From Caldimicrobium sp. (GTDB lineage Bacteria > Desulfobacterota > Thermodesulfobacteria > Thermodesulfobacteriales > Thermodesulfobacteriaceae), in NCBI GenBank assembly GCA_025059715.1, contig JANXCE010000003.1:1-64000 (forward strand): a stretch of DNA of 64,000 bases, read 5' to 3'. The translations under genes and the position numbers were made by a program. The notes under the pieces are model-generated. The model made no database searches, was not told where the DNA came from, and worked only from the letters and a program-made list of their open reading frames with translations. Positions 1-14,625 of this stretch are shown here, piece after piece; position 1 is the first letter of the stretch; each line of letters starts with the position of its first letter.

Positions 1-2
1 AT

Positions 3-896
3 GATCAGGCTTACCAGGGAGATTATCAAGGATTGTTTAATTACACCGCTTGCTTTCGATATGATATTATGTACAAACATGTGGAAAAGGATGAGGCCAA
101 ACAGAGGGAGAAATGGAAAAGGGTTCCAAGGTTTAACGTGCTTTTACCTCTATTATCCCTACTTCCTAAGGGAAAACTCTTAGACATAGGGTGCTCAACG
201 GGCAACTTTCTGTTAATTGCTAAATCCTTTGGCTTTGAGGTCTATGGAACAGAGGCCAGCAAAGAAGCCTGTAAGATAGGCACCTCTCGCTACGGCTTAA
301 AAATAGCTAATGTTCTTACTCTAAAGGAATTGCCTGCAGACTTTAAAGGTCCCTATAAAGTTATCACTGCCTTTGAGGTCATAGAGCATGTGGAGGAACC
401 CCTTAAGTTTTTAAGGGAAATCTATGAACATCTTGAGGAGGGAGGGTTTGCCATCCTAAGTTGTCCGCCCTACTTTAAGTTTGAGAATCTGGCCTTAGGC
501 TATCGTAAATATAAGTGGTGGTATAATGACTATCCACCCCATCACCTAAATCGCTTTAAGCCTTGGACTCTTTATTACGCCCTAAAACATGCCTCCTTTG
601 AAGAAGTGGTTGTCTTTACCGAGCCTTTACTTACAGGCACAGTCCTTGATGGCGTTACTCCCCAAGATGCTATTATACCCCTGCAAAATAATCAACAGCT
701 AACCCTTCCCAAGGCTATAGTTGCAAGTATTATCCTTGAAAGTTTAAAACCCCTTTACGTGAATGCCAGATATCTGGGAAATTTTCAGTTTGCCATAGGG
801 GTTAAGGGTAAAAGTGGGCTCAACTGGGAAAAGGTTCTAAGGCGAGCAATTGGTATCTCGGCGGTAGACCTTTTGTGGAGTGACCACAGGCGTTAA
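3..896 (+). CDS. SAM-dependent methyltransferase, 5' end missing
   Basis: Class I SAM-dependent methyltransferase (Methyltransf_23/11 type) of unknown substrate. The glycine-rich SAM-binding motif LLDIGCSTGNFL lies about 45 residues after the TTG at 33, followed by the acidic-strand region (YGTEAS) and the motif FEVIEHVEEPLKFL. The frame is open with no stop all the way to the first base, and the codons before 33 continue plausibly (Y-Q-G-D-Y-Q-G). The true start is therefore probably outside the window, and the missing part may be an N-terminal zinc-binding segment as in many relatives. An intrinsic terminator follows the stop. It converges with the flagellin gene. The family call is firm; the substrate is unknown (lipid, sugar or small-molecule acceptors are all possible). 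Confidence 0.8.
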   Translation, partial: DQAYQGDYQGLFNYTACFRYDIMYKHVEKDEAKQREKWKRVPRFNVLLPLLSLLPKGKLLDIGCSTGNFLLIAKSFGFEVYGTEASKEACKIGTSRYGLKIANVLTLKELPADFKGPYKVITAFEVIEHVEEPLKFLREIYEHLEEGGFAILSCPPYFKFENLALGYRKYKWWYNDYPPHHLNRFKPWTLYYALKHASFEEVVVFTEPLLTGTVLDGVTPQDAIIPLQNNQQLTLPKAIVASIILESLKPLYVNARYLGNFQFAIGVKGKSGLNWEKVLRRAIGISAVDLLWSDHRR

Positions 897-903
897 AAAT
901 AAA

Positions 904-932
904 AAAAGGCGGGGAGTTGGACCCCGCCTTTT
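904..932 (-). terminator. Intrinsic terminator between the methyltransferase and flagellin genes
   Basis: An 11-bp perfect stem (AAAAGGCGGGG paired with CCCCGCCTTTT) encloses a 7-base loop. On the minus strand the stem is followed by a T-rich run, as expected for a factor-independent terminator of flagellin. On the plus strand a shorter T run follows, so it may also stop the methyltransferase transcript. This is the clearest hairpin terminator in the window. Confidence 0.9.
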
Positions 933-949
933 ATGGATTAGGATTCAAC

Positions 950-2653
950 TTATCTTAGGAGTTGCAGCATCAACTGAGGTAAGGTGTTAGCTTGGGCAAG
1001 CATAGCCACAGTTGCTTGCATGCGGATCTGATAGGTGGTAAAGTCAGCCATTTCCTTGGCATAGTCGGTGTTGCGAATCACAGATTCCGCCTCTTTAGTG
1101 TTGTCAAAGGCTACCTTTTGAGCATCAAAAATGGTCTGTAAGTTATTCATCACCGCACCAATCTTTGCACGCTCAGTATCTGCTTTCTGTAGAGCCTTGG
1201 ATGTAATCATTATAGCCTTTTCAGCTCCCTCATTAGTAGTTACGTCAATATTATAAAGGCTTTGCAGACTGACATTATTACCACTTGCTATCTGAAAATA
1301 CAATCCATAGTTGTTATCAGTAGTGCCAGAGACTCCGTTATACTCAAGTTTAAAGGAATCTATACCACCTATTTCGATTTGCCCAGTCTTCACAGCAGCA
1401 TAATAAGTTATTGCATTAGTAGTAGAGCTTATTGTAGTATAGTCTGCACCCTGTAACAGTTGACCAAGGTCAACTGTTATGTTGGCTGATATTGTTCCAC
1501 TATTCGTTTCTGATTCAGCATAATTCACTCTTGCTTCAATGGCTATAGTTTCGCCGTTCTTGGTAACGAGTTTCAATCTTCCATTATCGTTTATGGCGGT
1601 TACATTGGCATTGTTTGCAGTTGCAGCTGTATTGATTCTATTTACTAAGGTATCTAAATCTGCAAGAGCCGTTGAAGTAAAATTTGAAGTTGTAGAAGTA
1701 TCACCAGACGCTGTTCCAGCGACACTGCCAAGGTTTACCGTAAAAGTTTTTTGACCATCACCAATGTAAAACCTTAAATCTATTGTTGCGGTAAAATTTG
1801 CTGAATCACTGGTCTCAGAACCAGTGTAACTAAAGGTTCCTGTAATTACATTGCTGTACTGATTTGCTAGACTTATGTTTTTAGCCTTAGCCTCTATTTG
1901 AAGTTTCTTCATCTGCTCATTTTCATTTATGTTTTTGGCTAAGGTTGCCGCATCTACTAGTGTGTTAGTTGTTCCACCCCGATAAACAGTAATGTCTGCA
2001 ATTCTGACATAATCATTTTCGGAAAGGATGTGATTAGTGGCTCCACCTAATGAACCTGTTCCTGAAAGAAGAACTGCTAAGCTTCCACCTGCGGTTGAAC
2101 TTACGCCTGTTGCGGTGCCACCGTTACCTGAGGCAATATAGGCACCAAGGCTTTGTGCTCTGACATCTGATATGGATATACTAACGGTTTGATCCATTCT
2201 GGGACCATAATGAATATACTTTCCTGCAAAGGACCCATCAAGAAGCCTAATACCGTTATATTCAGTGTCAGTTCCAATCTTCTGAATAGCATCAACAAAG
2301 TTCATAATCTCTCTTTGTAGGGCCATGCGTGCATTGGGGTCATTCACGTCGTTTGCGGCATTTTGAGCCCGCACATAGATCTCCTGCAGTTTGTCAAAGA
2401 TTTGTCCAGCACTGGCCTCGGCAATCTGTAGGGCAGAAATTCCCGTGCTAATGTTTCTGTTACCCTGCTCGTAGGCCTTGGCCACTGTGGAGAGCATGTC
2501 CGCAATGAACATACCAGCCGAATCATCAGCGGCGCTAAGGATTCTCATCCCGGTTGACATCCTCAACAAACTCTTGTTCATAGCGCGCTCATTACGAATG
2601 AGCGCAGTGTGGGTTTGGGCTGCTGCTTCGTTAAAATTAATTTTTACTGCCAT
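950..2653 (-). CDS. fliC: Flagellin
   Basis: Structural subunit of the flagellar filament, 567 residues. The conserved D0/D1 N-terminal part (about residues 1-170, including RMSTGMRILSAADDSAG and a segment ending in YNGIRLLDG) and the C-terminal helix (about 470-567, ending LPQLMLQLLR) are intact. The variable middle (about 170-460) is rich in T, S, N, A and G, as in exposed D2/D3 domains. The ATG has a strong ribosome site (AAGGAGG, 8 bases upstream) and a sigma-28 promoter (2699-2725), and a terminator lies just after the stop, so it is a single-gene unit. The middle region carries several N-X-S/T sequons (near residues 284, 324, 349, 390 and 459), possibly relevant because an STT3-type oligosaccharyltransferase lies at 39.3-41.4 kb. 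No other flagellar gene is in the window. Confidence 0.97.
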   Translation of the reverse strand: MAVKINFNEAAAQTHTALIRNERAMNKSLLRMSTGMRILSAADDSAGMFIADMLSTVAKAYEQGNRNISTGISALQIAEASAGQIFDKLQEIYVRAQNAANDVNDPNARMALQREIMNFVDAIQKIGTDTEYNGIRLLDGSFAGKYIHYGPRMDQTVSISISDVRAQSLGAYIASGNGGTATGVSSTAGGSLAVLLSGTGSLGGATNHILSENDYVRIADITVYRGGTTNTLVDAATLAKNINENEQMKKLQIEAKAKNISLANQYSNVITGTFSYTGSETSDSANFTATIDLRFYIGDGQKTFTVNLGSVAGTASGDTSTTSNFTSTALADLDTLVNRINTAATANNANVTAINDNGRLKLVTKNGETIAIEARVNYAESETNSGTISANITVDLGQLLQGADYTTISSTTNAITYYAAVKTGQIEIGGIDSFKLEYNGVSGTTDNNYGLYFQIASGNNVSLQSLYNIDVTTNEGAEKAIMITSKALQKADTERAKIGAVMNNLQTIFDAQKVAFDNTKEAESVIRNTDYAKEMADFTTYQIRMQATVAMLAQANTLPQLMLQLLR

Positions 2654-2698
2654 GGCTGCACCTCCTTAAGTTTTTTTTGTTTTCTCTTTTGCTAATTA

Positions 2699-2725
2699 TT
2701 ATCGGATATAACTGAAAAATCTTTA
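2699..2725 (-). promoter_or_regulatory. Sigma-28 (FliA) promoter of flagellin
   Basis: On the minus strand a -35 element TAAAGATT (2718-2725) and a -10 element TCCGATAA (2699-2706) are separated by exactly 11 bases. The bacterial FliA consensus is TAAAGTTT-N11-GCCGATAA, so the match is 7/8 at each element with the right spacing. The -10 ends 45 bases before the flagellin ATG. The -35 element overlaps the stop codon of the upstream cbiET gene. Confidence 0.9.
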
Positions 2726-3955
2726 ACTACGTAGAGAAGCCTTCAGACCCCTTTCCGCCTGAAGTATGAATACTGGGTTTTCCGCCTTTAGATAAAAGCT
2801 TTCTCCAATAGATTTTCCACGATTCACCTGAATTTGAGTGACCTGAAGAATGTGGGAATCCTCAAGCACAGAATAGGCTCTTAGCAAATTCTTCAGGGAA
2901 ACAAAGGTAGCAACAATTCTCTCTAAGGAAGTTAAGCCTTTTAAAAAAAACAGGTTTTCCTCTAATTTACCACCACTTCCTCCGAGGAAGACCCGGTGAG
3001 GAAGTGGTAACCCTTGAAGGGCATAGGGAGCTTCCCCACAAATAACCTCTAAATTGTGCAGGTTAAATTTTTTCTTATTTTTAAGAATTAGTTCTACGCA
3101 GTGCCTATCTTTCTCTATTGAAAAAACCTTTAGCTCTGGAGATAAGAGTGCTACTTCCAGGCTTACTGCCCCTGAACCCGCCCCAATATCCCAAAATACA
3201 CCTCTTCTTGGAAGTCTCAGTTGGTGAAGAATCACCGCCCGCACTTCATCCTTAGTAATCATGTTATTCCGATGCTCTATTTGTTCCTCTTTGAGACCAA
3301 AAAGCAGTCGGGATCCCCAAGAGGGATTTTCAATCATCAAACAGTTAGGCTCTCTAAATAGGCGCTGAGAAAATTCCTTCGGCTTTCCAGAATGAATTTT
3401 TTCCTCCGGTGTGTTAAGCTTCTCTCCCACATGAATTAGGAGTTCCGTTAACCCCCTTTCACATAACAGACGGGCAATAGAGGTAGGAGAATTTTTGCGG
3501 TCTGTGAAGAGAAACAGGTAGGGATGGAACTCTATCTCCTGCCAGAGCCTCTCCTGTTGATCATCTCTTCCATGTAAAGAAAAAGCTTTAACCAAGGCCA
3601 CGGGAATCTTAAGCTTAGCACAGAAGATCTGTAGAGTTGAAAGATCTGGATGTATGGAGATTAGCTCTGGGGGAAATCTTTTTAGAAGGGTTTCTCCAAG
3701 ACCGAAAAAAAGGGGATCTCCGGTAGAGAGAACTACCACTTCCTCTTGGTTCTTTTCTAATTCAAGATACAGCTCCTCAAGTTTGTTAACGACCCTTATC
3801 TTAGGCCAAATCTTTTGACAAATAAGATAGCGCTCTTTAAAGGGCTCAACTTGCGGGGAAAATAGGTATACTCGGGTTGCTCGGAGTAAAAGTTCCTCTT
3901 CCTCAGAGGTGAAGGGTTTATAACCAAATCCCAAAACATAAATCCTCTGTTTCAT
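2723..3955 (-). CDS. cbiET: Fused CbiE-CbiT precorrin/cobalt-precorrin C5,C15-methyltransferase and decarboxylase (CobL type)
   Basis: Bifunctional corrin-ring enzyme that methylates C5 and C15 and decarboxylates the C12 acetate side chain. The first half (about residues 1-200) is a tetrapyrrole methylase: YVLGFGYKP at the start, and STGDPLFFGLG as the SAM-binding signature. The second half (about 235-410) is a CbiT-type methyltransferase with DIGAGSGAVSLEVAL. The same fusion is known as CobL. ATG at 3955 is preferred over the TTG three codons upstream; neither has a convincing ribosome site. It is the last gene of the operon cbiXC-cobF-cbiET and is separated from cobF by about 34 bases. The flagellin promoter starts inside its stop codon. 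Confidence 0.93.
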   Translation of the reverse strand: MKQRIYVLGFGYKPFTSEEEELLLRATRVYLFSPQVEPFKERYLICQKIWPKIRVVNKLEELYLELEKNQEEVVVLSTGDPLFFGLGETLLKRFPPELISIHPDLSTLQIFCAKLKIPVALVKAFSLHGRDDQQERLWQEIEFHPYLFLFTDRKNSPTSIARLLCERGLTELLIHVGEKLNTPEEKIHSGKPKEFSQRLFREPNCLMIENPSWGSRLLFGLKEEQIEHRNNMITKDEVRAVILHQLRLPRRGVFWDIGAGSGAVSLEVALLSPELKVFSIEKDRHCVELILKNKKKFNLHNLEVICGEAPYALQGLPLPHRVFLGGSGGKLEENLFFLKGLTSLERIVATFVSLKNLLRAYSVLEDSHILQVTQIQVNRGKSIGESFYLKAENPVFILQAERGLKASLRS

Positions 3956-3989
3956 GTAAGTCAAAAATTAAGTCAAAAGTAGACCTTAC

Positions 3990-4757
3990 TTAATTACTAT
4001 CACTAACCTCCCCGGGAGGTTTTAGGGGCTTTAAAACATATACCTCCATTAGATAACCCTTTTTGTGCTTTAAATCCTTCCTGACATTATGAATTTTTTC
4101 CCATACCTCCCTAAGCCTGCCACTAACATAGAGTTCATCCTCAGAGCCCACATAGGCACCCCAGTAGATGTAAAATTCCTTATCCTTAAACTTTTGAAAG
4201 GTTTCATAATTATCTAAAAAAACTACTGCCGGGTGCTCTGGAGGTTTACTTTTTAGTAGGGTTCTCGGAGTGTGGAAGATAACGGGAGTAGAAATCTCAG
4301 TTAGAGATATTCTCTCTTTGGCACAAAGAATTTGAAAAGAAGAGAGCCCGGGAATTACCTCCCAGGCGATGGGAAGTTCTCTTTCGAGCTCTCGCATGAT
4401 ATCAATATGTCCGTCAAAGAGCGAAGGATCTCCCCAGATAAGAAATCCCGCTTCTTCTTCGTCAGCATTTACGAGAGCCTCTCTCAAGATCTTTGCCTTC
4501 TCGGTCCTCCACGCCCTAATCTTTTCCCTGTAGTCTTTTCCCTTCGTTCTTTCTGGAAAGGGCAGAGCCACAATCTTAAAATTATCACCTTTGATTGCCT
4601 TCAATAAGGCAATCTTCCTTAGGGTTAAATCTTCCTTGCGTCCTTCCTTTTTGGAGACATAAAAAAGAGATAATCTCTCGATAACACTTTTGGCTTCAAG
4701 GGTTAGGTATTTTATATCTCCGGGACCAATCCCAATTAGATAAAGTTTTTTTACCAT
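3990..4757 (-). CDS. cobF: Precorrin-6A synthase (deacetylating), CobF family
   Basis: Tetrapyrrole methylase of the CobF subfamily. In the known pathway CobF methylates C1 and removes the C20/methyl unit as acetate. The protein has 255 residues, close to the usual CobF length. Family marks: LIGIGPGDIKYLTLEA at the N-terminus, FLIWGDPSLFDG in the middle, the VIPGLSSFQ region and the C-terminal YWGAYVGSEDELYVSG. Its start overlaps the end of the cbiX-cbiC gene by 7 bases, implying translational coupling. CobF belongs to the oxygen-dependent (late-cobalt) pathway, whereas its neighbour CbiX inserts cobalt early. This odd mix is discussed as a finding. No CbiD or CbiG, the usual anaerobic counterparts, is present in this window. 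The family call rests on remembered motifs. Confidence 0.85.
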   Translation of the reverse strand: MVKKLYLIGIGPGDIKYLTLEAKSVIERLSLFYVSKKEGRKEDLTLRKIALLKAIKGDNFKIVALPFPERTKGKDYREKIRAWRTEKAKILREALVNADEEEAGFLIWGDPSLFDGHIDIMRELERELPIAWEVIPGLSSFQILCAKERISLTEISTPVIFHTPRTLLKSKPPEHPAVVFLDNYETFQKFKDKEFYIYWGAYVGSEDELYVSGRLREVWEKIHNVRKDLKHKKGYLMEVYVLKPLKPPGEVSDSN

Positions 4758-5713
4758 GATGAATTATGAGCCAGCTCTAAGAGGGCGTTTACCACAGCCA
4801 CACAAGCGGGACTACCTCCTTTTTTGCTAAGGTTTGTAATAAAGGGAAAGTCCTGCTGAGAAAGCAATAACTTGGCATTGAAGGCATTAATAAAGCCCAC
4901 AGGTAGACCTATAACCACTAAGTCTTTGCGGTTTTCTCGGTTAATTATTTCGATGGTTTTTAAGAGGGCTGTAGGTGCATTACCTATAGCTACAAGCCCA
5001 AGATTTGTCTCCTTCTCAAAAGCCTGCTCAATTGCCTTTTCCGCCCTCGTGCCCTCAGCTTCTTCCACAGCATTCAGATAACATAAGACCCTATTTTTAC
5101 CATGTCTCTTTTTAATACCCGCCCTCACCATTTCTACATCTACCAGAATATCCTTTCCCTGTCGTAAAAGCTCTAAGGCCTTTGATATAGCCTCTGGATG
5201 AAAAATTAAAGTATCCTTAAATTCAAAATCCGCAGTAGCATGAATCACCCTTTTAATAATTGCTCTTTCTTCTGGAGAAAAGGAACTCAAATCTACCTCC
5301 CTCTCAATTATCTCAAAACTTTTTTCTTCTATATCCTTACCAGTCAAAGAACCAGCCTCAATTATTCGCTCTCTAACAATGTCCGCAAGTTTTTCATGAA
5401 TCCCCAGAGGTTTTGTATAAATAATGTCTATTTCTGGATACTTGGTTTTGTATCGGTTCAAAATAGTAGGAATGTCCTTGGTCACATGATAGCCATCACT
5501 GAGAAAAAAGGGATGCACCACAATCCTTTCTACTCCTTTGGAAATGAGTGTCTCCAAAACTTCCTCCAAGGAGGGTTTCGCAAATTGAAGAAAGGCAAAG
5601 AATAAATCTTCCATTGGTCTGTTGAGTTGATGAGATAGAATTTTCAGGAAGGGTTGCCACCTATTAGCATCACTTCGGGGACTTCCATGTAAGACTATAA
5701 TAATCTTTTCCAT
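4751..5713 (-). CDS. cbiXC: CbiX sirohydrochlorin cobaltochelatase fused to CbiC cobalt-precorrin-8 methylmutase
   Basis: Two cobalamin enzymes in one chain of 320 residues. Residues 1-120 are a short CbiX/CbiK-like chelatase: IIVLHGSPRSDANRW carries the metal-site histidine, and VVHPFFLSDGYHVTKDI the second one. Residues about 130-320 are a CbiC/CobH methylmutase that moves a methyl group from C11 to C12. It contains IHATADFEF, with the catalytic histidine, and VGFINAFNAK/GGSPACVAVVNAL. It is the first gene of cobalamin operon 1. The ATG has AAAGG nearby, and an 18-bp inverted repeat sits 15 bases upstream. Both halves look complete. Placing the cobalt-inserting enzyme here points to a cobalt-early route. 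Confidence 0.93.
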   Translation of the reverse strand: MEKIIIVLHGSPRSDANRWQPFLKILSHQLNRPMEDLFFAFLQFAKPSLEEVLETLISKGVERIVVHPFFLSDGYHVTKDIPTILNRYKTKYPEIDIIYTKPLGIHEKLADIVRERIIEAGSLTGKDIEEKSFEIIEREVDLSSFSPEERAIIKRVIHATADFEFKDTLIFHPEAISKALELLRQGKDILVDVEMVRAGIKKRHGKNRVLCYLNAVEEAEGTRAEKAIEQAFEKETNLGLVAIGNAPTALLKTIEIINRENRKDLVVIGLPVGFINAFNAKLLLSQQDFPFITNLSKKGGSPACVAVVNALLELAHNSSW

Positions 5714-5728
5714 ACCAAATACCTTTTA

Positions 5729-5746
5729 TGGTAATTTATATTACCA
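5729..5746. promoter_or_regulatory. Candidate operator of cobalamin operon 1 (18-bp inverted repeat)
   Basis: TGGTAATTTATATTACCA is an inverted repeat with perfect 7-bp arms and a 4-base centre. It lies 15 bases upstream of the cbiXC start codon. Partial half-sites (TGGTGAT, TTGGTAT) flank it. An inverted repeat of identical geometry lies upstream of cobT (14476-14493). This supports a shared protein-binding site; the regulator is unknown. Confidence 0.55.
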
Positions 5747-5816
5747 ATTTATATCACCATCTACTATAGCAAACTTCTCTATTTTTAAAAGAGCCCTTTA
5801 AAAATTTCACCCCCCC

Positions 5817-6666
5817 TGCATAAGTTCAAGGTCTTTTTTGCTTCTCACTAACCCCTTCTCCCATCAAAGACTCAAAAATGCTGCAAAGACTTGAAGCAAT
5901 CAAAGATGCATCCCAAAAAACAAAGAACTCGCCTTCAGATTAAAGGGTATCGAATTTCACAACTCTCTTAGCTCCGAAGCCACAGTCGAAGCTTTCAGTA
6001 TCTGTAGAGCTACGATCTATAGATGGAAGAAACTTCTTTTAAATCCAAACCGAGGACACCAAAGAGGAAATGTTCAAAGAGGTGGCCACAGGAGGTATTA
6101 GAATTTATCCTGAGGAACAGGAGAAAAAATCCTCGCATAGACAAGTAGAAGCTTAAGCCTTTGGTGGATAGATTTTGTAGGGAAAGGGGTATAGCTTTGG
6201 TAGCAGTATCTACGATTGGAAGGATTATAAAGTATTTGAAAGAAAGGGGGTAAGTTTGAGAAGAGAGGTAGTGAAGAAGCTTTAGTTTTTAAGGCTGACG
6301 GGAAGGTGTATTGAGAGGGAGAAGAAGGAGACAAAAGATGTGGCTATTAGATTTGGATTTGCCTTTGAAATGCAGTCATTTATCGAGTAGCATTGGGAGG
6401 GATTTTTGGAGGAAATTTAAGGCGGTAGCTCCTTTTGAAATAGGGGGCACGCAGACTGAGCTTGAGAGGGAGGGAATGGGTATGTAGAGAGGTTAAACCG
6501 GACATGGGAAGAGGAGTTTATTGAGTATAGGGAGCTTATGAGGTATTTGATATGGTATAGTTCGGAGAGGGTGCATAGTGGTCTTGGGAATGTATCGCCT
6601 TTGGAGTGGATTTGTCACAAATTTTGCAAGAATTCCCCTCAGTCTAAAATCCTATGGACTCACCCC
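5817..6666 (+). mobile_element. Decayed insertion sequence, copy A (internally deleted)
   Basis: A relic of the same element as 47334-48392. The left end TGCATAAGTTCAAGGTC and the right end (CTAAAATCCTATGGACT) match the imperfect inverted termini of that copy. The inside is a transposase pseudogene with stops and frameshifts. It still encodes the helix-turn-helix part (AFSICRATIYRWKKLL around 5985-6035) that the longer copy has lost. It lacks the original start, the region around the first catalytic Asp, the segment around the second acidic residue, and a C-terminal block. The last two deletions are shared with copy B. It therefore cannot encode an active enzyme. The right end lies 8 bases upstream of a promoter -35 box. 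This relic accounts for almost all of the gene-free stretch 5714-6734. Confidence 0.8.
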
Positions 6667-6674
6667 TAAATGGC

Positions 6675-6702
6675 TTGTCCTTTCTGGAAATACTATTATA
6701 CT
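6675..6702 (+). promoter_or_regulatory. Sigma-70 type promoter of the coiled-coil gene
   Basis: -35 TTGTCC (6675-6680) and -10 TATACT (6697-6702) with a 16-base spacer, 32 bases before the ATG of the coiled-coil gene. The IS relic ends 8 bases upstream of the -35. Confidence 0.6.
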
Positions 6703-6734
6703 AATCAGTTGAGAGTCAGATTAAGGGGGACTAA

Positions 6735-7205
6735 ATGAATGGGTTAGAAGCTTTAACCCAGAGCGAATTAAGAGGATGGGTGGCCTCCATTGTGGAAGAG
6801 GTCATCAAGGAAAAGTTAGGAGAGTTTGTGATAAAGCATGAGCGGGAAGCAAGGGAGATCTCCTTAGTGGAGAGGCTATTGAGAGTGGAAGAAGAGTTAA
6901 AATTTTTGAGGCAGTTAGAAGAAGAAAGGTTTGGCGCCTTGCTAAAAGAGATGAACATCCGCTTTGAAGCCATGAATGCCCGCTTTGAAGCTCTACAAAA
7001 GGAAATGAACACTCGCTTTGAAGCTCTCCAAAAGGAAATGAATACCCGCTTTGAGGCCATGAATGCCCGCTTTGAGGCCCTACAAAGGGAAATAGATACC
7101 CGCTTTGAGGCTTTGGAGAGAAGATTTAACTTCCTTCAGTGGTTAATCATAGGTGGCTTTTCCTTCCTGAGTCTTCTTCTGGTCTTAATAAGATTTGGAT
7201 CTTGA
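6735..7205 (+). CDS. Coiled-coil protein with C-terminal membrane anchor
   Basis: Function unknown, 156 residues. Residues 1-70 are a charged helical region. Residues about 73-127 consist of near-identical units MN(I/A/T)RFEA interspersed with LQKE, giving mixed 7- and 11-residue periods typical of a long coiled coil. Residues about 133-153 (FLQWLIIGGFSFLSLLLVLI) form one membrane segment, leaving the coil probably cytoplasmic. The ATG follows AAGGGGG by 5 bases, and a sigma-70 promoter lies upstream. It stands alone between two IS relics and divides the two cobalamin operons. The repeat can expand or contract by recombination. It might act as a spacer, scaffold or stress protein; the sequence gives no direct clue to which. 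Confidence 0.8.
   Translation: MNGLEALTQSELRGWVASIVEEVIKEKLGEFVIKHEREAREISLVERLLRVEEELKFLRQLEEERFGALLKEMNIRFEAMNARFEALQKEMNTRFEALQKEMNTRFEAMNARFEALQREIDTRFEALERRFNFLQWLIIGGFSFLSLLLVLIRFGS
6951..7112 (+). repeat. Tandem 21/33-bp coding repeats
   Basis: Units beginning ATGAAyrYyCGCTTTGArGC recur six times, some separated by a 12-base CTACAAAAGGAA-like insert. They encode the MNxRFEA and LQKE modules of the coiled-coil protein. Codon changes between units are mostly silent, so the protein pattern is under selection. Confidence 0.85.
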
Positions 7206-7547
7206 GGCTTCGCCATTAAGTTAAAGCCTCTGCTGGATATAACTCTCTGAAAAAGTTGCCTAAAGTAAATTCAATATTTACACTAACGCTCTAACAACCC
7301 TTTAATAAGTTTAAATTTCTTTTGGGGCACAAGTTTCGTCCCCTCTATCAGAATGAAGGAAAGGGGTAAAATTAAAGATCAAAAATCAATTTTAGGAGGT
7401 TTTTTCTGAGAAAAAAGTCTAAGGTAAATGGCTAATCTCCACTATATTTAATTAAGAAAGGTATTGGATAAAGGGGGGCTTTACACTATTATTGAGGTCT
7501 CTTTCAGGGATTCCCAACAAATATGGCACTTAGGCTACTAAAGCAGG
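7206..7547. other. Gene-free stretch
   Basis: No open frame with a ribosome site and no recognisable protein. It is AT-rich with several short A/T runs. It borders the truncated IS copy B and may be old IS or flanking debris. No tRNA or clear hairpin terminator was seen. Confidence 0.5.
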
Positions 7548-7826
7548 AGTGGGAGGGACTTTTGGAGGAAATTTAAGGCGGTAGCTCCTTTTAAAATAGG
7601 GGGCGCGCAGACTGAGCTTGAAAGGGAGGGAATGGGCATGGTAGAGAGGTTTAACCGGACATTGGAAGAGGAGTTTATTGAGTTGAGAGAGCTTATGAGA
7701 AATTTAATATAATTCAATACACGGAGAGGGTGCATAGTGGTCTTGGGAAGGTATCGCCTTTGGAGTGGATTTGTCACAAATTTTGCAAGAATTCCCCTCA
7801 GTCTAAAAACTTATGGACTTGCCCCT
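7548..7826 (+). mobile_element. Decayed insertion sequence, copy B (3' fragment only)
   Basis: The 3' third of the same element as copies A and D: it begins in the GGGAGGGACTTTTGGAGG block and ends at the right terminus (CTAAAAACTTATGGACTT). It lacks the left two thirds. It shares two internal deletions with copy A: one removes the block for the second acidic residue, the other a block near the C-terminus. It retains VERFNRTLEEEFIE coding in frame where copies A and D are frame-shifted. It lies directly beyond the 3' end of cbiA. Confidence 0.75.
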
Positions 7827-7839
7827 TTTACTTTAAAAT

Positions 7840-9123
7840 TTAAAATTTAAAAGCTATAAGATGAAGGTATGAAGCTAAAGTGTTCTTATATCGGAAACCC
7901 TCCTGATAGGTGAATTTATCTAAGGTCTTAACCAGATAGATTCGTCTTAAGTTTCTTGCAGTGCTCTCTATAATTTGAGTATAATGAAATTCGTGGGTAA
8001 AAAAGGGAGCTTGACACTCAAAAAAGGGAATTTTCTCTAAGGGTTTTACTAAGCGATATCCTAAAGAGAGGGAGCCCTTTCTTATGTAAAAGGGAAGGGC
8101 TCCGACTAAGGAATATCTTTTCCCCTCCCAATCTAAGAGCTTACTCAAGTAAATCAATCCGCCACATTCCGCATATAGAGGACATCCTGTTTCAATCCAA
8201 AGCTTTAATTCTCGTAGCATTTTTTTATTACTTGTTAATTCTTTAGCAAAGAGTTCTGGATAGCCCCCTCCTATATAAATAGCCTGAACTCCCGAGGGTA
8301 TGGCCTCATCTTCAAGGGGACTAAAGGTTGATACCTCCGCCTGATTTTTCAGTTCTTCCAAAAGATGTTGATAGTAAAAGTTAAAGACTCGATCAAAGGC
8401 TATGGCTATTTTGGTGTAGGGAAGGCGTGGCAAAAACTGCGGGACCTTGCCTTTTGGATATGCCCTTTGAGAAAATTTTTCAATTAACTCAAGATTTAAG
8501 CCTCTCTCCAGGGTTTCCGCAACTTTATCTACAATTTCTTGAGCATAAGAAACATCCTCAGGGCGGAGTAACCCCAGATGTCTTGAAGGTAGCTCTAAGG
8601 CCTTTTCCAAAGGTAGATAGCCTAAGAGGGGCTCTCTTCTTATTGCTTTGCAGAGTCTCAACAGATGTCTTTCCGAAGAAACTCTGTTCAAAAGGATTCC
8701 GTAGGCAAGATTGGCTCTCTTTAACCTCTCAGTTATACCCCTAATTAAGGGCCCAACACTTTCCGCAAGACCATAGCTATCAATAACTAATACTACAGGG
8801 ATGTTTAAAGCTTTAGCCACCCTAAAGGTGCTATAGCTACCATCAAAGAGTCCCATAACCCCTTCCACTATCGCCCAGTCAACCCCTTCAATCTTTGAAT
8901 AAAAGAAATTTCTCAATCCTTCCGGAGACATAGCAAAGAGATCTAAGTTATAAGAGGGAAGTCCCGAAGCTAAGGTATGCCACTTAGGATCAATATAGTC
9001 CGGGCCAACTTTAAAGGGTTGAATTTTAAGACCCCTTTTCCTAAGGAGACGAAGTAAGCCAAGGGTAACTAAGGTTTTACCTTCACCGCTCTTTAAAGCG
9101 GAAATCACCAAAGCCTTAGCCAT
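7840..9123 (-). CDS. cbiA: Cobyrinate a,c-diamide synthase
   Basis: ATP-dependent amidation of the a and c acetate side chains using glutamine. Residues 1-200 form the P-loop synthetase domain: SALKSGEGKT is the nucleotide loop (Glu where Ser or Ala is more usual), then FKVGPDYIDPKWH and VEGVMGLFDG. Residues about 235-427 are the class I glutaminase-like domain with IGGGYPELFA, the nucleophile cysteine in YAECGGLIYL, and FHYTQI. The length of 427 fits the family. It overlaps cobD by 19 bases and is the last gene of operon 2. Confidence 0.96.
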   Translation of the reverse strand: MAKALVISALKSGEGKTLVTLGLLRLLRKRGLKIQPFKVGPDYIDPKWHTLASGLPSYNLDLFAMSPEGLRNFFYSKIEGVDWAIVEGVMGLFDGSYSTFRVAKALNIPVVLVIDSYGLAESVGPLIRGITERLKRANLAYGILLNRVSSERHLLRLCKAIRREPLLGYLPLEKALELPSRHLGLLRPEDVSYAQEIVDKVAETLERGLNLELIEKFSQRAYPKGKVPQFLPRLPYTKIAIAFDRVFNFYYQHLLEELKNQAEVSTFSPLEDEAIPSGVQAIYIGGGYPELFAKELTSNKKMLRELKLWIETGCPLYAECGGLIYLSKLLDWEGKRYSLVGALPFYIRKGSLSLGYRLVKPLEKIPFFECQAPFFTHEFHYTQIIESTARNLRRIYLVKTLDKFTYQEGFRYKNTLASYLHLIAFKF

Positions 9124-10184
9124 TCCTTCAGAGCCTCTAAAAATAAGTCATTGGTTGTTGTATCCTTAACTGAGACTCTCAGATAGTCGGAGCTCAAACC
9201 ACAAAAATTTTCACAATTACGAATCAATATTCTCTTCTCTCTTAATAACCAGTTCCAAAATTCTCTTCCCTTCGGTAGAAAAAATAGGTAAAAATTAGCC
9301 CTACTCGGATAAAACACTATACCTTCCTCTTTAAAAGTTCTTTCAAACTTTACTTTTTCTTGCAAGAAAAATTCTTTGCTTCTTCTTTCAAATTCTTTAT
9401 CTAACAAGAGAACTTTAGCGATAATCTGAGTGAGGGTATCCACATTCCATAGGGATAACTCCTTCGCTAAGACTTCTATGTAAGGACTCTGAGCTACCAT
9501 ATAGCCTACTCTTAACCCAGCTAAACCGTAAAATTTAGTAAGGGACCTGAAGACTACCAGATTGGCGGATTCTTGAACTGCAAAGAGGAGTGACTCTTCC
9601 TCACAAAAGTCTATAAAAGCCTCATCAATAAGAAAAAGAGCCTCGCGGTAGTTGGATATCACCTCTCTGAGCCACTCCTTAGGTAGGACCCATCCTGTGG
9701 GATTATTAGGGTTACAAATAATAACGATTGGTTTTTGTCTTTTGTTTTTGTTTAAAAAATCCTCTATTTTCCTCTTCCAATCTTGTTGATTTAACGAAAA
9801 AAATGAATTCTTTTCTACATGTGGAACTTGATTTAGTGTGCTTCCATAAGCAATGAAGGTAGGTTCCAATAGAAGTGCTTTACCGCCCTTCGGAAGAAGC
9901 CTCTTTAAAAAAAGGCTTATTAACTCTATGGATCCATGGCCAATTAAAATATAATCCTTGGGCACATTAAGTTTCACAGACAATATTTCCCTTAACTCCT
10001 CCGAGTGAGGTTCAGGATAGTATTCCAGATACCTACAAAGATCAAAGGCTTTCTCTTTTAAGTAATATGAAACCAGTGGATTAACTGAAGAGCTCAAATC
10101 CCTAATTTGAAAAGGGGAAACTCCTAAGAGTCTACCAAAATAGTAGATATTACCTCCATGGGAGATGGGATTAATTGAAAACAT
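9105..10184 (-). CDS. cobD: L-threonine-O-3-phosphate decarboxylase (CobD/CobC family)
   Basis: PLP enzyme of the histidinol-phosphate aminotransferase fold that makes the aminopropanol phosphate linker of the nucleotide loop. It starts with HGGN, a mark of this subfamily (about residues 9-12). It contains ICNPNNPTGW, LIDEAFIDF and RSLTKFYGLAGLRVGY, with the PLP-binding lysine. The length of 359 is typical. It overlaps both cbiB (14 bases) and cbiA (19 bases), consistent with one transcript. The alternative, HisC, is less likely because of the HGGN start and the operon context. Confidence 0.92.
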   Translation of the reverse strand: MFSINPISHGGNIYYFGRLLGVSPFQIRDLSSSVNPLVSYYLKEKAFDLCRYLEYYPEPHSEELREILSVKLNVPKDYILIGHGSIELISLFLKRLLPKGGKALLLEPTFIAYGSTLNQVPHVEKNSFFSLNQQDWKRKIEDFLNKNKRQKPIVIICNPNNPTGWVLPKEWLREVISNYREALFLIDEAFIDFCEEESLLFAVQESANLVVFRSLTKFYGLAGLRVGYMVAQSPYIEVLAKELSLWNVDTLTQIIAKVLLLDKEFERRSKEFFLQEKVKFERTFKEEGIVFYPSRANFYLFFLPKGREFWNWLLREKRILIRNCENFCGLSSDYLRVSVKDTTTNDLFLEALKEWLRLW

Positions 10185-11145
10185 AATGTATTAGCACTAT
10201 AAGTGAGATGAATAGGCAGGAAGATAGGAAGAGATGTTTTCTGGCTATGGATAAGGTATTTTCTAAGTTAGGGAGAAGCTCCTCCCCTAAGTAGGGTTTT
10301 AACACCAATTTTTTTTCGTAATAGGCAGGCCCTAAGAGTCTTACTCCGAGAGCGCCAGCAAGAGCAGACTCAGGATAACCAGCATTTGGGGAAGGGTGAA
10401 GATGGGCATAACGTAATATCCACTTAAAGGATCTTTTAGCAGCCCTAAATCCCAGAAGACAAAAGACAGAGATTACAAGTAACAGAGCAGTTATACGGGC
10501 AGGAATAAAGTTAAGCCAATCGTCCATGCGGGCAGAAAACCAACCGAATTCAAGATACCTCTCATTCTTGTATCCCACCATAGAATCAAGGGTATTTACA
10601 GTCTTATAAAATACTAATCCTGGCACTCCTAAAAGACTTAGCCAAAAGAGGGGAGCTATAACCGCATCGTTTAGGTTTTCCGCATAACTTTCTAAAACTG
10701 CTCTTTGAATATCTTTTTTAGACAGCAAATCCGTATCTCTTCCCACTAAGGCTCTTAAGGCCAGTCGTGCCTCTTCTATTTGTCCCTTAACTAACTTTTT
10801 CTCCACCTCTACTCCTGCCTCAATCAGGCCTCTTAGAGCCAAGAATTGAGAAATAAGAAAGGCAAAGATTAGTTCTCCTGCAAAACTTGACTGAAAATAG
10901 CTCAAGTAAATGAGAGTTAGCAATAGGTAAAACCCAACGGATACTCCACAAACTACTCCGAAAAAGAGAATTCCCTGAACCTTAGGGGATAGGAAAGAGA
11001 GTTGTCTTAGCCTGTTTTCAAGAGTTGTGCTTAGTCTTCCTATAAGTGAGATAGGATGAGGTATGTAGCGAGGGTCTCCGAAGAGAATATCTATGAAAAA
11101 GGCAATTAGTATTATCTTTAAGTCAACTGAAAAGAGGGAGCTCAC
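10171..11145 (-). CDS. cbiB: Adenosylcobinamide-phosphate synthase (CbiB)
   Basis: Inner-membrane enzyme attaching aminopropanol (phosphate) to adenosylcobyric acid. Marks: DILFGDPRYIPHPISLIGRL near residue 20, LVGRDTDLLS and VLESYAENLNDAVIAPLFW in the middle, and SPNAGYPESALAGALGVRLLGP. About five hydrophobic spans. The GTG start follows the TAA of cbiP with no gap. It partners cobD, which supplies its substrate. Confidence 0.95.
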   Translation of the reverse strand: MSSLFSVDLKIILIAFFIDILFGDPRYIPHPISLIGRLSTTLENRLRQLSFLSPKVQGILFFGVVCGVSVGFYLLLTLIYLSYFQSSFAGELIFAFLISQFLALRGLIEAGVEVEKKLVKGQIEEARLALRALVGRDTDLLSKKDIQRAVLESYAENLNDAVIAPLFWLSLLGVPGLVFYKTVNTLDSMVGYKNERYLEFGWFSARMDDWLNFIPARITALLLVISVFCLLGFRAAKRSFKWILRYAHLHPSPNAGYPESALAGALGVRLLGPAYYEKKLVLKPYLGEELLPNLENTLSIARKHLFLSSCLFISLIVLIHYVFN

Positions 11146-12642
11146 TTATATCCCAAGTATTTTTAAGATCCTTTCTATATTGAGATGTCTTTCTACTAAG
11201 TCCGCTAGCCTATTTAGGGAGTGCTCTAAGACTTCATGGTAACGCCACTTAACCTCTATGGGGTTTAATCCCTTTTTAAGGCGGTGTCTATTGAGAAGCT
11301 CTCTCCGAAAGGTGTCATTGGTAAAAATACCATGTAAATAAGTCCCCCATATGCTTCCCTGTCTACGGCCCTCGAGAAAAACTTCTCCGTTAGTTAATCT
11401 TTTTACCTCAAAGAGATTCATATCCCCCTCACTAATCCCCTTATGAATTTCATAACCCCATAGTTCTTCCGAAGAATAAAAGCCACAGAGAGGCTTAGCC
11501 AATACCTGAGTAGTAATTTTCTCGGGAAAAAAGGTGGTAGAGATCTCTAACAGCCCTAATCCCCTAAGTTCTCTCTCTTCTCCTTCAACCCTATAGGGAT
11601 TATAAAGGACCTCCCCTAACATTTGAAACCCGCCACATATCCCAATTACTTCAATATCTCTCTCCAAGGCCTTTTTTAGTAAATCTCTAAAGTTAAATTC
11701 CTGTAATTGTTTGAGATCAGAAAAGGTATTTTTACTGCCAGGAATTATGACGATATCTGCCTGTAGAATATCCTCTTTTCGAAAGGAGTAAATGAGTTCT
11801 ACATCTTCCTCCAAATAAAAGGGGTCAAAGTCGGAAAAGTTTGAGAGATGCTTAAGCGGTAGGACTACGATCCGAAGATCTGTTTCGCCCTTATAGGGCC
11901 TTCTTTTATTAAAGAAGGAAAAGCCATCCTCATCAGAGATGGATAAGGTCTCATCGTAGGGAAGCACCCCCAAACAGGGAAGTCCGCTAAGTTTAGAGAA
12001 TTTCTCTAAGCCTGGAGTCAAAAGTTCCAAATCTCCACGAAATTTATTTATAATGTAACCTTTGATAAGTTTTGCATACTCTTGAAGATGGATTTCTAAA
12101 AGTGCCTTAGTGCCATAGAGGGAGGCAAAAACCCCTCCTTTGTCAATATCTCCGATAATAAGAACCGGAGCTTTTAAGAAAAGTGCTGATTTAATATTGA
12201 CTAAATCTACCTCTAAAAGATTTATTTCGGCAGGACTTCCTGCACCCTCCAAAAGCAAGATTTCAAATCTATCCTTTAAATGTTCTAAAATCTCTTTTAT
12301 CTCTCGCCATAGGAAATCTTTTTCTTGGTAATACTCACTGGCAGACATTGTCTTGTAAACCCGTCCCTTTAGGATAACTTGAGAACCTCTAAAACCCTCA
12401 GGTTTTAAGAGGATGGGATTAAAGGCGTATTCAGGTTCCACTCCACAAGCTTTAGCTTGTAGAGCCTGTGCTAAACCTATTTCTGCTCCATCTTTACAGA
12501 CATAACTTTGGAGGCTCATGTTTTGGGCTTTAAAGGGAGCCACTTTGTATCCCCTTTTGTAGAGAATTCTGCCCAGGGCAGTCACAAGAAAGGACTTACC
12601 GGCAGAAGAATGTGTGCCGGTTATCATTAAGGCTTTTGCCAT
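11146..12642 (-). CDS. cbiP: Cobyric acid synthase
   Basis: Glutamine-dependent amidation of four side chains (b, d, e, g) of the corrin. It has 498 residues: a P-loop THSSAGKS near residue 10, FKAQNMSLQS, LLEGAGSPAEINL, the glutaminase motif IGICGGFQMLG with the nucleophile cysteine, and a C-terminal GTYLHGIF histidine region. The CbiP/CobQ name is the same function. Its start overlaps the end of cobS by 16 bases. Confidence 0.96.
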   Translation of the reverse strand: MAKALMITGTHSSAGKSFLVTALGRILYKRGYKVAPFKAQNMSLQSYVCKDGAEIGLAQALQAKACGVEPEYAFNPILLKPEGFRGSQVILKGRVYKTMSASEYYQEKDFLWREIKEILEHLKDRFEILLLEGAGSPAEINLLEVDLVNIKSALFLKAPVLIIGDIDKGGVFASLYGTKALLEIHLQEYAKLIKGYIINKFRGDLELLTPGLEKFSKLSGLPCLGVLPYDETLSISDEDGFSFFNKRRPYKGETDLRIVVLPLKHLSNFSDFDPFYLEEDVELIYSFRKEDILQADIVIIPGSKNTFSDLKQLQEFNFRDLLKKALERDIEVIGICGGFQMLGEVLYNPYRVEGEERELRGLGLLEISTTFFPEKITTQVLAKPLCGFYSSEELWGYEIHKGISEGDMNLFEVKRLTNGEVFLEGRRQGSIWGTYLHGIFTNDTFRRELLNRHRLKKGLNPIEVKWRYHEVLEHSLNRLADLVERHLNIERILKILGI

Positions 12643-13406
12643 AAGACTCCTAAATAGCTTAAGGTTATAAGTTCGGAGAGTATTACTAAAGCTCCCAGAT
12701 TATCCCCGGTTAGGCCCGAGAATCTCTTTTCACAATACCTTTTAAAATACCAGAGGATTACGGCATTTGAAATTAATATCCAGAATAGATCCCTCATATC
12801 AAACTTAGTGAGCATTAAAAAAATGCCAAGTAAAAAGGCACTGACAATCATGGCGTAAGTAAATATTTTAAGATTAGTAAGGGAGATCATTAAATAACCG
12901 AGCCCCTCTTCCTTTGCAGGTTTACCCCGGTAGAGCCAATAAACGAGAAAGAGTCTTGAAAAGAAATAGGGTAAAATAAACACATAAAAGGCGCCTTTTT
13001 TTAGAATCTCGTTAAATAACGAGACCTTTCCAATTATGGCAAGAGAAATTGCTAGAACTCCAGCGACCCCTATAGTGGAGTCCTTCATAATAGCCAGTCT
13101 TTTTTCTTTATCCTCCTTAGGATCTAAATTACCCCTATAGGAGAGGGCATCAAAGGTATCTCCAAGGCCATCTAAGTGGAAGATACCCCTGATATGAAGA
13201 AGCACCACTACCAAAACAATAGAGAGCAAAACTTCCGATATCCGTGAAAATAGAAGTTGAGTAGTTAAAAATAAAAAAAGGCCTTCCAAAAAACCTGCTA
13301 AGGGAAAAAAGGGAATACCCTTTTGGAAGTCCCTTTCAGATTGAGGATATACCCTTAGAGGTAGCCTCCAGAGAAAGCTTAAAGCAAAGAGAGTGCCATA
13401 GAACAT
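12627..13406 (-). CDS. cobS: Adenosylcobinamide-GDP ribazoletransferase (cobalamin-5'-phosphate synthase)
   Basis: Membrane enzyme joining the activated corrin to alpha-ribazole phosphate. Marks: FLWRLPLRV near the N-terminus, FFPLAGFLEG, the acidic GIFHLDGLGDTFDAL motif, KDSTIGVAG and LTGDNLGA. Several membrane spans. The frame extends upstream to an ATG at 13457, inside cobT. The ATG at 13406, one base after the cobT stop, gives a start typical of the family, so it is chosen. Neither site is decisive; AGGAG lies about 22 bases before the chosen ATG. Confidence 0.93.
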   Translation of the reverse strand: MFYGTLFALSFLWRLPLRVYPQSERDFQKGIPFFPLAGFLEGLFLFLTTQLLFSRISEVLLSIVLVVVLLHIRGIFHLDGLGDTFDALSYRGNLDPKEDKEKRLAIMKDSTIGVAGVLAISLAIIGKVSLFNEILKKGAFYVFILPYFFSRLFLVYWLYRGKPAKEEGLGYLMISLTNLKIFTYAMIVSAFLLGIFLMLTKFDMRDLFWILISNAVILWYFKRYCEKRFSGLTGDNLGALVILSELITLSYLGVLWQKP

Positions 13407-13407
13407 C

Positions 13408-14457
13408 TTATGAGTGGGCGGTAGAGACTCCTGCTGAAGAGAAAGTTGCCATTTCATTAAATATACGAAGGGAAGCCTCTACTAATAGCATGGCTAAGGC
13501 TGCCCCTGTTCCTTCACCAAGCCGAAGATTCAAATCAAGCAGAGGATTTAGGCCAAGGTATTCCAGTTGAACTTGATGCCCTCTTTCTTGGGAGCGGTGA
13601 GAGGCAATGATATAGTATTTTACCGAGGGATTTATTTTATAGGCTATTAAAGCCCCAGCAGTAGTAATAAATCCATCGATCACAACGGGAACTCCTTTTT
13701 CTGCACAGGCTAAGATCACACCTGCACAAGCCCCAATCTCCGTGCCCCCCACCTTTGCTAATATGTCTAAGGGATCTTGAGGATTGGGTTGGTGAAGCTC
13801 TATAGCCCTCTTGATTACTGATATCTTTTTTAGAAAAGTTTCTTCACTAATTCCAGTTCCTCTACCAGTTACCTCTTCCACCGCTTTTCCTGTTATAACG
13901 GAAGTTATAGCAGAAGAGGAAGTGGTATTCCCAATGCCCATGTCCCCTACGCCGATTAGATTATACCCCTGGGATATGGCCTGTTGAGCTAACTTATAAC
14001 CTACTTCTATAGTCTTTACCGCCTCTTCTTTGGACATAGCTGGTTCTCTTGCTAGGTTTTTAGTGCCATAACAAACTTTAAAGTCATATAAACCATCTAC
14101 CTTTCCAAAGTCATAATCTACTCCTACATCTACCACTCTTACCTCCGCACCTGCAAATCGTGCTAAGACATTTATACCTGCTCCACCTCTTAGGAAATTG
14201 AATACCATCTGAGAGGTTACTTCTTTGGGAAAGGCAGAAACTCCCTCCTCCACCACTCCATGATCCCCTGCAAAAACAAAAACCAGTTTGCCCTTAATTG
14301 TAGGCTCCAAGGATTCATAAATAGCTACGAGTTGAACTGCTAACTCCTCTAACCTGCCAAGACTTCCCCTGGGCTTAGTGAGATTATTTAGTCTCTCCCA
14401 AGCTAAATTTATGAACTCCTCTTTTAATGGCTTAACTACTATCTTTTTAAAATCCAT
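13408..14457 (-). CDS. cobT: Nicotinate-nucleotide--dimethylbenzimidazole phosphoribosyltransferase
   Basis: Activates the lower-ligand base by forming alpha-ribazole phosphate. It has 349 residues with NNLTKPRGSLGRLEELA, FAGDHGVVEEGVSAFP, GVGDMGIGNTTSSSA and, near the C-terminus, LRLGEGTGAALAM with the catalytic glutamate. It is the first gene of cobalamin operon 2, preceded by an 18-bp inverted repeat (14476-14493). No obvious ribosome site lies before the ATG. A biosynthesis gene for the base itself is not in the window. Confidence 0.97.
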   Translation of the reverse strand: MDFKKIVVKPLKEEFINLAWERLNNLTKPRGSLGRLEELAVQLVAIYESLEPTIKGKLVFVFAGDHGVVEEGVSAFPKEVTSQMVFNFLRGGAGINVLARFAGAEVRVVDVGVDYDFGKVDGLYDFKVCYGTKNLAREPAMSKEEAVKTIEVGYKLAQQAISQGYNLIGVGDMGIGNTTSSSAITSVITGKAVEEVTGRGTGISEETFLKKISVIKRAIELHQPNPQDPLDILAKVGGTEIGACAGVILACAEKGVPVVIDGFITTAGALIAYKINPSVKYYIIASHRSQERGHQVQLEYLGLNPLLDLNLRLGEGTGAALAMLLVEASLRIFNEMATFSSAGVSTAHS

Positions 14458-14475
14458 AGGGCAAATAAAACTTTT

Positions 14476-14493
14476 TGGTAAAGCAATTTACCA
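14476..14493. promoter_or_regulatory. Candidate operator of cobalamin operon 2 (18-bp inverted repeat)
   Basis: TGGTAAAGCAATTTACCA has perfect 7-bp arms around a 4-base centre, 18 bases upstream of the cobT start codon. It has the same arms (TGGTAAW/WTTACCA), length and position as 5729-5746 upstream of cbiXC. It could also form a short RNA hairpin, but the conserved DNA symmetry and differing centre favour a dimeric protein site. Confidence 0.55.
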
Positions 14494-14625
14494 TTTTAAA
14501 TTAATAGATTTTTGATTTTTTACAAGGGCTCAATATTTTGAAACAACTAAATATCTCTTGGATTAACCCCTTTTCCAAGTCCTATCCCTACCAGAAGAGC
14601 TCTCTCTTTATTATAGAGAGAAATT

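Follow-up and report, generated by a model that had tools for sequence, protein, structure and literature searches.

The window analysed here, a whole stretch of 64,000 nucleotides, carries part of a vitamin B12 pathway of the oxygen-independent, cobalt-early type. With a probability that we put at about 85%, CobF has displaced CbiD in this pathway and methylates C1 of cobalt-precorrin-5B. This reading draws on the observed gene families, the absence of CbiD, the slot of CobF in its operon, the recurrence of the arrangement in other anaerobe lineages, and one scar of the replacement. CobF would accept a cobalt-containing, already deacylated substrate, with C1 methylation as its only task.

In the proposed pathway, CbiX would insert cobalt early, CbiL and CbiH (the latter fused to CbiG) would methylate and contract the ring, CbiF would methylate C11, and CbiG would open the lactone and release a two-carbon fragment. 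CobF would then use SAM to methylate cobalt-precorrin-5B at C1, giving cobalt-precorrin-6A, and CbiET, CbiC and CbiA would serve the later steps. Because CbiG is kept in these organisms, CobF would need to do no more than transfer a methyl group. In the accessible text of PMC7242693, aerobic CobF methylates C1 and the extruded C20 piece is lost in the same reaction; in the anaerobic route as given there, ring contraction falls to CbiH, loss of the two carbons as acetaldehyde to CbiG, and the C1 methylation that follows to CbiD. The original prediction held that CobF might have been recruited to an anaerobic ring contraction, doing the work usually given to CbiD. Recruitment for CbiD's work is supported, as CbiD is absent from the window's genome (G000) and from G128, a complete genome within the genus, and is not found whole in any of 19 genomes with a CobF of this type. 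A part for CobF in ring contraction or C20 removal need not apply, since CbiH contracts the ring and CbiG expels the piece, leaving C1 methylation.

Why might such a replacement matter? In the available portions of PMC6593275 and PMC545781, the CbiD/CbiG and CobF/CobG pairs are used as a pathway signature, which in the former separates the anaerobic from the aerobic route, and genomes like G000 would be called incomplete or aerobic. The reconstruction rule in the available portion of PMC4403557 (2015) treats CobF and CbiD as alternatives, "(CobF or CbiD)", for both routes; it is a rule only, however, and that portion states that its gut genomes all lack CobF and describes no hybrid of the present kind. 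The literature that we searched, in which subscription papers fell mostly outside the scope, yielded no description of CobF in CbiD's place in anaerobes, which is weak evidence. The case would be a direct test of CobF on cobalt-containing intermediates and of the separability of deacylation from methylation, a separability relevant to the engineering of B12 production. It is also an example of non-orthologous replacement inside an operon, one whose scar can be seen at the locus L055.

CobF among the cobalamin genes of the window

The gene at 3990-4757 on the minus strand encodes a true CobF, a SAM-dependent methyltransferase of the tetrapyrrole-methylase fold. TIGR02434, the curated equivalog profile for CobF, matches it at 215.6 bits (cut-off 195.8) over its full length, with protein residues 3-243 aligned to model positions 1-249 of 250. 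The second-best family, CobI/CbiL, reaches 65.8 bits against its own cut-off of 163.25. Pfam gives only the general TP_methylase family, and the CbiD family, PF01888, has no match in this gene. The solved chains nearest to the protein are the CobF structures 2npn and 3nd1. A structure model built from 42 CobF sequences (pLDDT 93.2), which replaced an initial four-sequence model (pLDDT 73.8), finds the 3nd1 CobF as its top match among solved structures, with a TM score of 0.86 and 30% identity. CbiL, CbiF, CbiH and CbiE were also considered for this gene and rejected, their scores lying far under their cut-offs. The assignment to CobF, which a profile search favouring CbiF, CbiH, CbiL or another methylase would have overturned, thus stands.

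CobF lies between two fusion genes, both on the same strand. Upstream, at 4751-5713, the early-insertion cobalt chelatase CbiX and the precorrin-8 methylmutase CbiC are joined in one protein (PF01903, 95.5 bits, residues 9-115; PF02570, 203.6 bits, residues 127-313), and the stop of this gene overlaps the start of CobF by a few bases. Downstream, at 2723-3964, is a CbiE-CbiT fusion for C5 and C15 methylation and decarboxylation, with scores of 135.2 bits for TIGR02467 and 99.4 bits for TIGR02469, both above cut-off. CbiX beside CobF, with CbiC and CbiET adjoining, is therefore as had been described.

Further cobalamin genes occupy 7840-14457, again on the minus strand. These encode a CbiA/CobB a,c-diamide synthase (7840-9123; NF002204, 415.1 bits, cut-off 254), a CobD-type threonine-phosphate decarboxylase/aminotransferase between CbiA and CbiB (9105-10184; TIGR01140, 242.6 bits, below the cut-off of 290.55), the adenosylcobinamide-phosphate synthase CbiB (10171-11145; TIGR00380, 232.9 bits, cut-off 165.9), a CbiP/CobQ cobyric acid synthase (11146-12642; NF001989, 565.1 bits, cut-off 273), the ribazoletransferase CobS (12627-13457; TIGR00317, 109.9 bits, cut-off 110) and the phosphoribosyltransferase CobT (13408-14457; TIGR03160, 469.2 bits, cut-off 319.3). 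An ORF on the opposite strand (6735-7205, plus strand), coiled-coil-like and with short internal repeats, stands between CbiX-C and CbiA and so divides the cobalamin genes. Rfam gave no match to a B12 riboswitch near the operon in window positions 1-16,000. Neither CbiD nor CbiG is among the window's listed ORFs (beyond 16,000, those of at least 150 residues), in agreement with the earlier statement that the pair is missing from the window.

The pathway in the rest of the genome

The window's genome is a 1.84 Mb assembly of 80 contigs, 99.6% complete and 4.8% contaminated. A genome-wide search for CbiD with PF01888 found no match in it, the same search being positive in 6 of 14 control genomes, and G128 has no CbiD match either. 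The possibility that both CbiD and CbiG are missing from the genome was considered and rejected, as CbiG is found on contig C26, fused to CbiH. This fusion matches PF11760, PF01890 and TIGR01466, so that the N and C domains of CbiG are both present, and the same contig encodes CbiL (TIGR01467, over its cut-off) and CbiF (best family TIGR01465, 225.6 bits, under the cut-off of 259.65). After CbiG-CbiH come a BPL_N-like gene and then CobU. CobG has no match in G000 or G128. The suggestion that CobF might coexist with CbiD and CbiG elsewhere in the genome accordingly held for CbiG and failed for CbiD, and the recommended search of the genome found cbiG and cbiH, as a fusion, and neither cbiD nor cobG.

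Might CobF have come from contamination of a fragmented assembly? We reject this source on the evidence of G128, a complete genome in which the cluster recurs. A single stretch of 20 kb there holds CbiL, CbiF, CbiG-H, the BPL_N-like gene, CobU, CbiET, CobF, CbiX-C, CbiA, CobD, CbiB and part of CbiP, with CbiG-H, CobF and the BPL_N-like gene identified by profile and the other genes by likeness to the window proteins. The closest named CobF locus among the matches listed belongs to a Thermodesulfobacteriaceae MAG, at 51% identity, which points to that family for the window's organism.

Compared with the known anaerobic pathway (CbiK/X, L, H, F, G, D, J, T, E, C, A), G000 has the early chelatase CbiX together with CbiL, CbiH, CbiF, CbiG, CbiT, CbiE, CbiC and CbiA, and differs in having CobF for CbiD and no recognisable CbiJ. 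Because there is no CbiD in the genome, CobF is the sole recognisable C1-methyltransferase in this cobalt-early cbi pathway. CobF and CbiD (cobalt-precorrin-5B C1-methyltransferase) belong to different sequence families, yet they share the operon slot between CbiC and CbiET and presumably share a reaction. The lineage suggests that this thermophile is anaerobic and makes its corrinoid without oxygen.

CbiJ, the enzyme that follows C1 methylation, is a second hole in the pathway besides CbiD, PF02571 having no match in any of the 14 genomes examined (G000, G128, G072, G014 and G148-G157). With two textbook steps missing, one might think that the pathway is decaying, that CbiD and CbiJ have been lost, and that CobF is a leftover in an organism that salvages corrinoids. 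We regard this as very improbable, as the remaining genes are intact in several lineages and the frames of CobF are open. Moreover, the available portion of PMC545781 describes cbiJ as missing from most of the delta-proteobacteria studied whose pathway is otherwise nearly complete, and has them using CbiD/CbiG and not CobF/CobG.

Most of the CobF-type clusters in Thermodesulfobacteriota and Nitrospirota encode, after CbiG-H, a protein of about 400 residues that begins like a class-I glutamine amidotransferase or DJ-1 protein. This is the BPL_N-like gene (L008, 7283-8518, on C26 of G000; L043, 10739-11950; also L050, L054, L139-L141, L143 and L144), named for a weak match to BPL_N, PF09825; no NCBIfam family scores over its cut-off. 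The protein does not look like a reductase, though CbiJ is absent from all tested genomes of this kind.

CobF and CbiD in other genomes

How are CobF and CbiD distributed among related bacteria? In an even sample of the window's phylum, 148 genomes in all, CobF exceeds its cut-off in four (G000, G128, G072 and G014), CbiD is found in 65 and CbiG_N in 68. CbiG_N occurs without CbiD in seven genomes: G000, G128 and G072, with CobF, and G039, G141, G005 and G078, without it (98%, 90%, 79% and 62% complete, respectively). CbiD occurs without CbiG_N in G042, G086, G113 and G115. That three of the four CobF genomes fall among the seven CbiG-positive, CbiD-negative ones has a hypergeometric probability of 0.003, a figure that overstates independence, as two of the three represent one genus. 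The third, G072, comes from another family of the phylum and has the order CbiC-CobF-CbiET-CbiF-CbiG-CbiH, with CbiK nearby, both CbiG domains present, and no CbiD. The CbiD-bearing G014 has CbiC-CbiD-CbiET, with CbiD in the same slot (CbiD by profile search, its neighbors by likeness).

G014 is the exception among the CobF genomes of the phylum in having both genes. Its CobF (L044, 9863-10663) is of a second kind, which groups with the aerobic CobFs in the tree and lies far from the cbi cluster, beside genes that on inspection resemble those of anaerobic ribonucleotide reductase. The genome has CbiD and CbiG_N, and no CobG over cut-off, no CbiJ and no CobN. A genome that lacks CbiD need not have CobF, because G039 has CbiG and neither enzyme. 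At its locus L145, CbiF, CbiG, CbiH, CbiA, CbiC and CbiP are present, and a search for a gene filling the CbiD slot found none; G039 is possibly a third solution, or a gap.

A collection of 84,980 species genomes was scanned with a four-sequence alignment, and the best 80 of at least 588 loci encoding relatives were kept. The top ten, L047-L056, make up the anaerobe group, which was formed post hoc from titles and neighbors; they come from Thermodesulfobacteriota, other deltaproteobacterial MAGs, Nitrospirota and one unnamed source. Among these best 80 of at least 588 loci, the gene downstream of CobF is CbiET in eight of the ten anaerobe loci and CbiB in the other two, and a reference cbi gene in none of the 70 others, a contrast favored by the use of anaerobe-type proteins as the neighbor reference set.

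Whole-genome searches covered 38 genomes, 34 from the best 80 loci plus G000, G128, G072 and G014. The 13 with an anaerobe-type CobF (G000, G128, G072 and G148-G157) contain no whole CbiD and one CbiD fragment. All 13 have CbiG_N, none has CobG over cut-off (weak partial matches occur in some), and one, G154, has CobN over cut-off, with G156 just under. Among the other 24 CobF genomes (G158-G181), CbiD is present in 2, CbiG_N in 17, CobG over cut-off in 11, CbiJ in 24 and CobN over cut-off in 22. CobF with CbiG is therefore by itself no proof of an anaerobic route, because 17 of these 24 aerobic CobF genomes have CbiG_N. In seven Streptomyces genomes (G159, G160, G165, G166, G170, G172 and G177; loci L058, L059, L064, L065, L069, L071 and L076), CobF, CbiG_N and CobN occur with no CobG over cut-off and no CbiD, possibly a further mixed type of pathway.

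The retention of CbiG bears on what CobF does. As the available portion of PMC7242693 has aerobic CobF methylate C1 and shed the two carbons in one reaction, the anaerobe enzyme could conceivably do the same in full, deacylating as well as methylating at C1, with cobalt-precorrin-5A or an earlier intermediate as its substrate, and so bypass both CbiG and CbiD. This is improbable given that CbiG_N is kept in 13 of 13 genomes tested, with N and C domains both present in G000 and G072, and we prefer C1 methylation after CbiG has acted.

One might also propose an oxygen- or CobZ-dependent route in which CobF acts at its usual step, the genes resembling CbiX and CbiG being incidental. Two CobN-like chelatase genes are found in G000 (C2:58123-60411 and C3:19104-22463), both under the CobN cut-off, and CobN-like genes occur in G128, also under the cut-off, and in G148. 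Chromatiaceae CobFs, moreover, fall near the anaerobe group in one tree and, in the single locus examined, adjoin CobZ-like genes. Such a route is nevertheless very improbable. The lineages are anaerobic, CobG is lacking, CbiX or CbiK is in the same operons, and CobN has no match at all in G072 or in six of the ten genomes from loci L047-L056. Nor is CobN diagnostic, because two control archaea with CbiD and CbiG, Methanocaldococcus jannaschii and Methanosarcina acetivorans, exceed the CobN cut-off. The setting of aerobic CobF, where CobG takes part and CobN inserts cobalt late, is thus not that of G000, which has no CobG, only CobN-like genes under cut-off, and CbiX in the operon.

The Nitrospirota, the phylum of G151, offer a further comparison. 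Among 118 genomes, CobF is over cut-off in eight and CbiD is found in 55, with no overlap (hypergeometric 0.005, with kinship ignored). The six new CobF neighborhoods from this sample (L139-L144) all contain CobF, CbiET, CbiL, CbiF and CbiG-H; in L142 the CbiG-H match reaches the end of the retrieved stretch, and the region for the BPL_N-like gene lies beyond it. The CbiX-C fusion is in five of the six (none matched in L144), as is the BPL_N-like gene in five of six. Together with the 13 genomes above, this makes 19 genomes of Thermodesulfobacteriota and Nitrospirota with an anaerobe-type CobF and no whole CbiD, which answers the proposed check of co-occurrence across anaerobes. Could CobF nevertheless be redundant with CbiD, or have some other role beside it? 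G014 does carry both genes. The proposal is scarcely credible against the absence of CbiD from G000 and G128 and of whole CbiD from the 19 genomes, and against the mutual exclusion of the two genes in Nitrospirota; for the window's genus it is already refuted by the complete genome G128.

Origin of the anaerobe-type CobFs

The window CobF shares its family, fold and conserved motifs with aerobic CobF (precorrin-6A synthase, TIGR02434; 3nd1 and 2npn), but differs in lying in a cobalt-early cbi operon without CobG, in belonging to a tree group of its own, and in a His for Thr change after the WGDPxLYD motif that is found in 19 of 19 members. A first tree had 50 rows, namely 43 of the best 80 loci, four other sequences and three CbiL outgroups, and in it 13 anaerobe CobFs form one group with support of 100/99. 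A second tree of 55 rows included the six new Nitrospirota CobFs and left out L123, which has a stop in frame; the 19 anaerobe-type CobFs again form one group, with support of 82/70, in 80% of bootstrap trees. The CbiL outgroup is distant (branch 2.2), and the group may be either nested in the aerobic CobFs or sister to them. Two Chromatiaceae CobFs are sister to the anaerobe group in the first tree (82/95), a placement lost in the second, where anaerobe-type, Chromatiaceae and aerobic CobFs part at the base. In the one Chromatiaceae locus examined, CobF of Halochromatium adjoins CobZ-like (TcuA/TcuB-named) and CobK-type genes.

The His is residue 117 of the window CobF, after the WGDPxLYD loop, and is one of nine group-specific columns listed. 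All 13 anaerobe CobFs carry it, and 29 of the 30 aerobic CobFs carry Thr instead (30 of 31 counting G014, and 32 of 33 adding the two Chromatiaceae, all three having Thr). In the 42-sequence alignment the His occurs in 18 of 18 anaerobe-type and 0 of 24 other sequences, L053 making the nineteenth, and a motif scan of the 70 other loci among the best 80 of at least 588 found it in none of the 68 that match the pattern. His117 may represent one ancestral change; as a sequence feature it is a lead on altered function, not proof. Because the three CobF groups part at the base of the larger tree, the idea of CobF as an oxygen-era enzyme is neither supported nor excluded. It is conceivable, if rather unlikely, that CobF was originally, or was early re-tuned as, the C1-methyltransferase of the cobalt-early anaerobic pathway, with His117 fitted to a cobalt-containing, deacylated substrate, and that the acetyl-removing aerobic CobF is derived from it.

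Several relatives appear to have made the same exchange of CbiD for CobF, and in one of these the old gene shows a scar. In L055 (QMMN01000032.1, a deltaproteobacterial MAG), a frame at 5070-5315 encodes the first 56 or so residues of CbiD (TIGR00312 model positions 1-52, E 1.9e-11). After the stub comes a CobI/CbiL methylase tail (model positions 134-230 of 230, E 4.7e-8). The chimeric remnant spans 5070-5527, and the frame of the tail ends at the base immediately preceding the ATG of an intact CobF, after which comes CbiET; at another place the operon has an intact CbiL. A search for the origin of the CobI/CbiL tail gave weak matches only. Most simply, a cobI/cbiL-cobF piece would have recombined into cbiD and removed most of it; misassembly of the MAG may instead have produced the chimera. 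Remnants of CbiD were sought in G072, L051, L052 and L053, and none was found. In L052 (Eth-SRB1, related to L055), the stretch between CbiA and CobF at 7735-8000 holds only a fragment of CbiC, residues 150-177.
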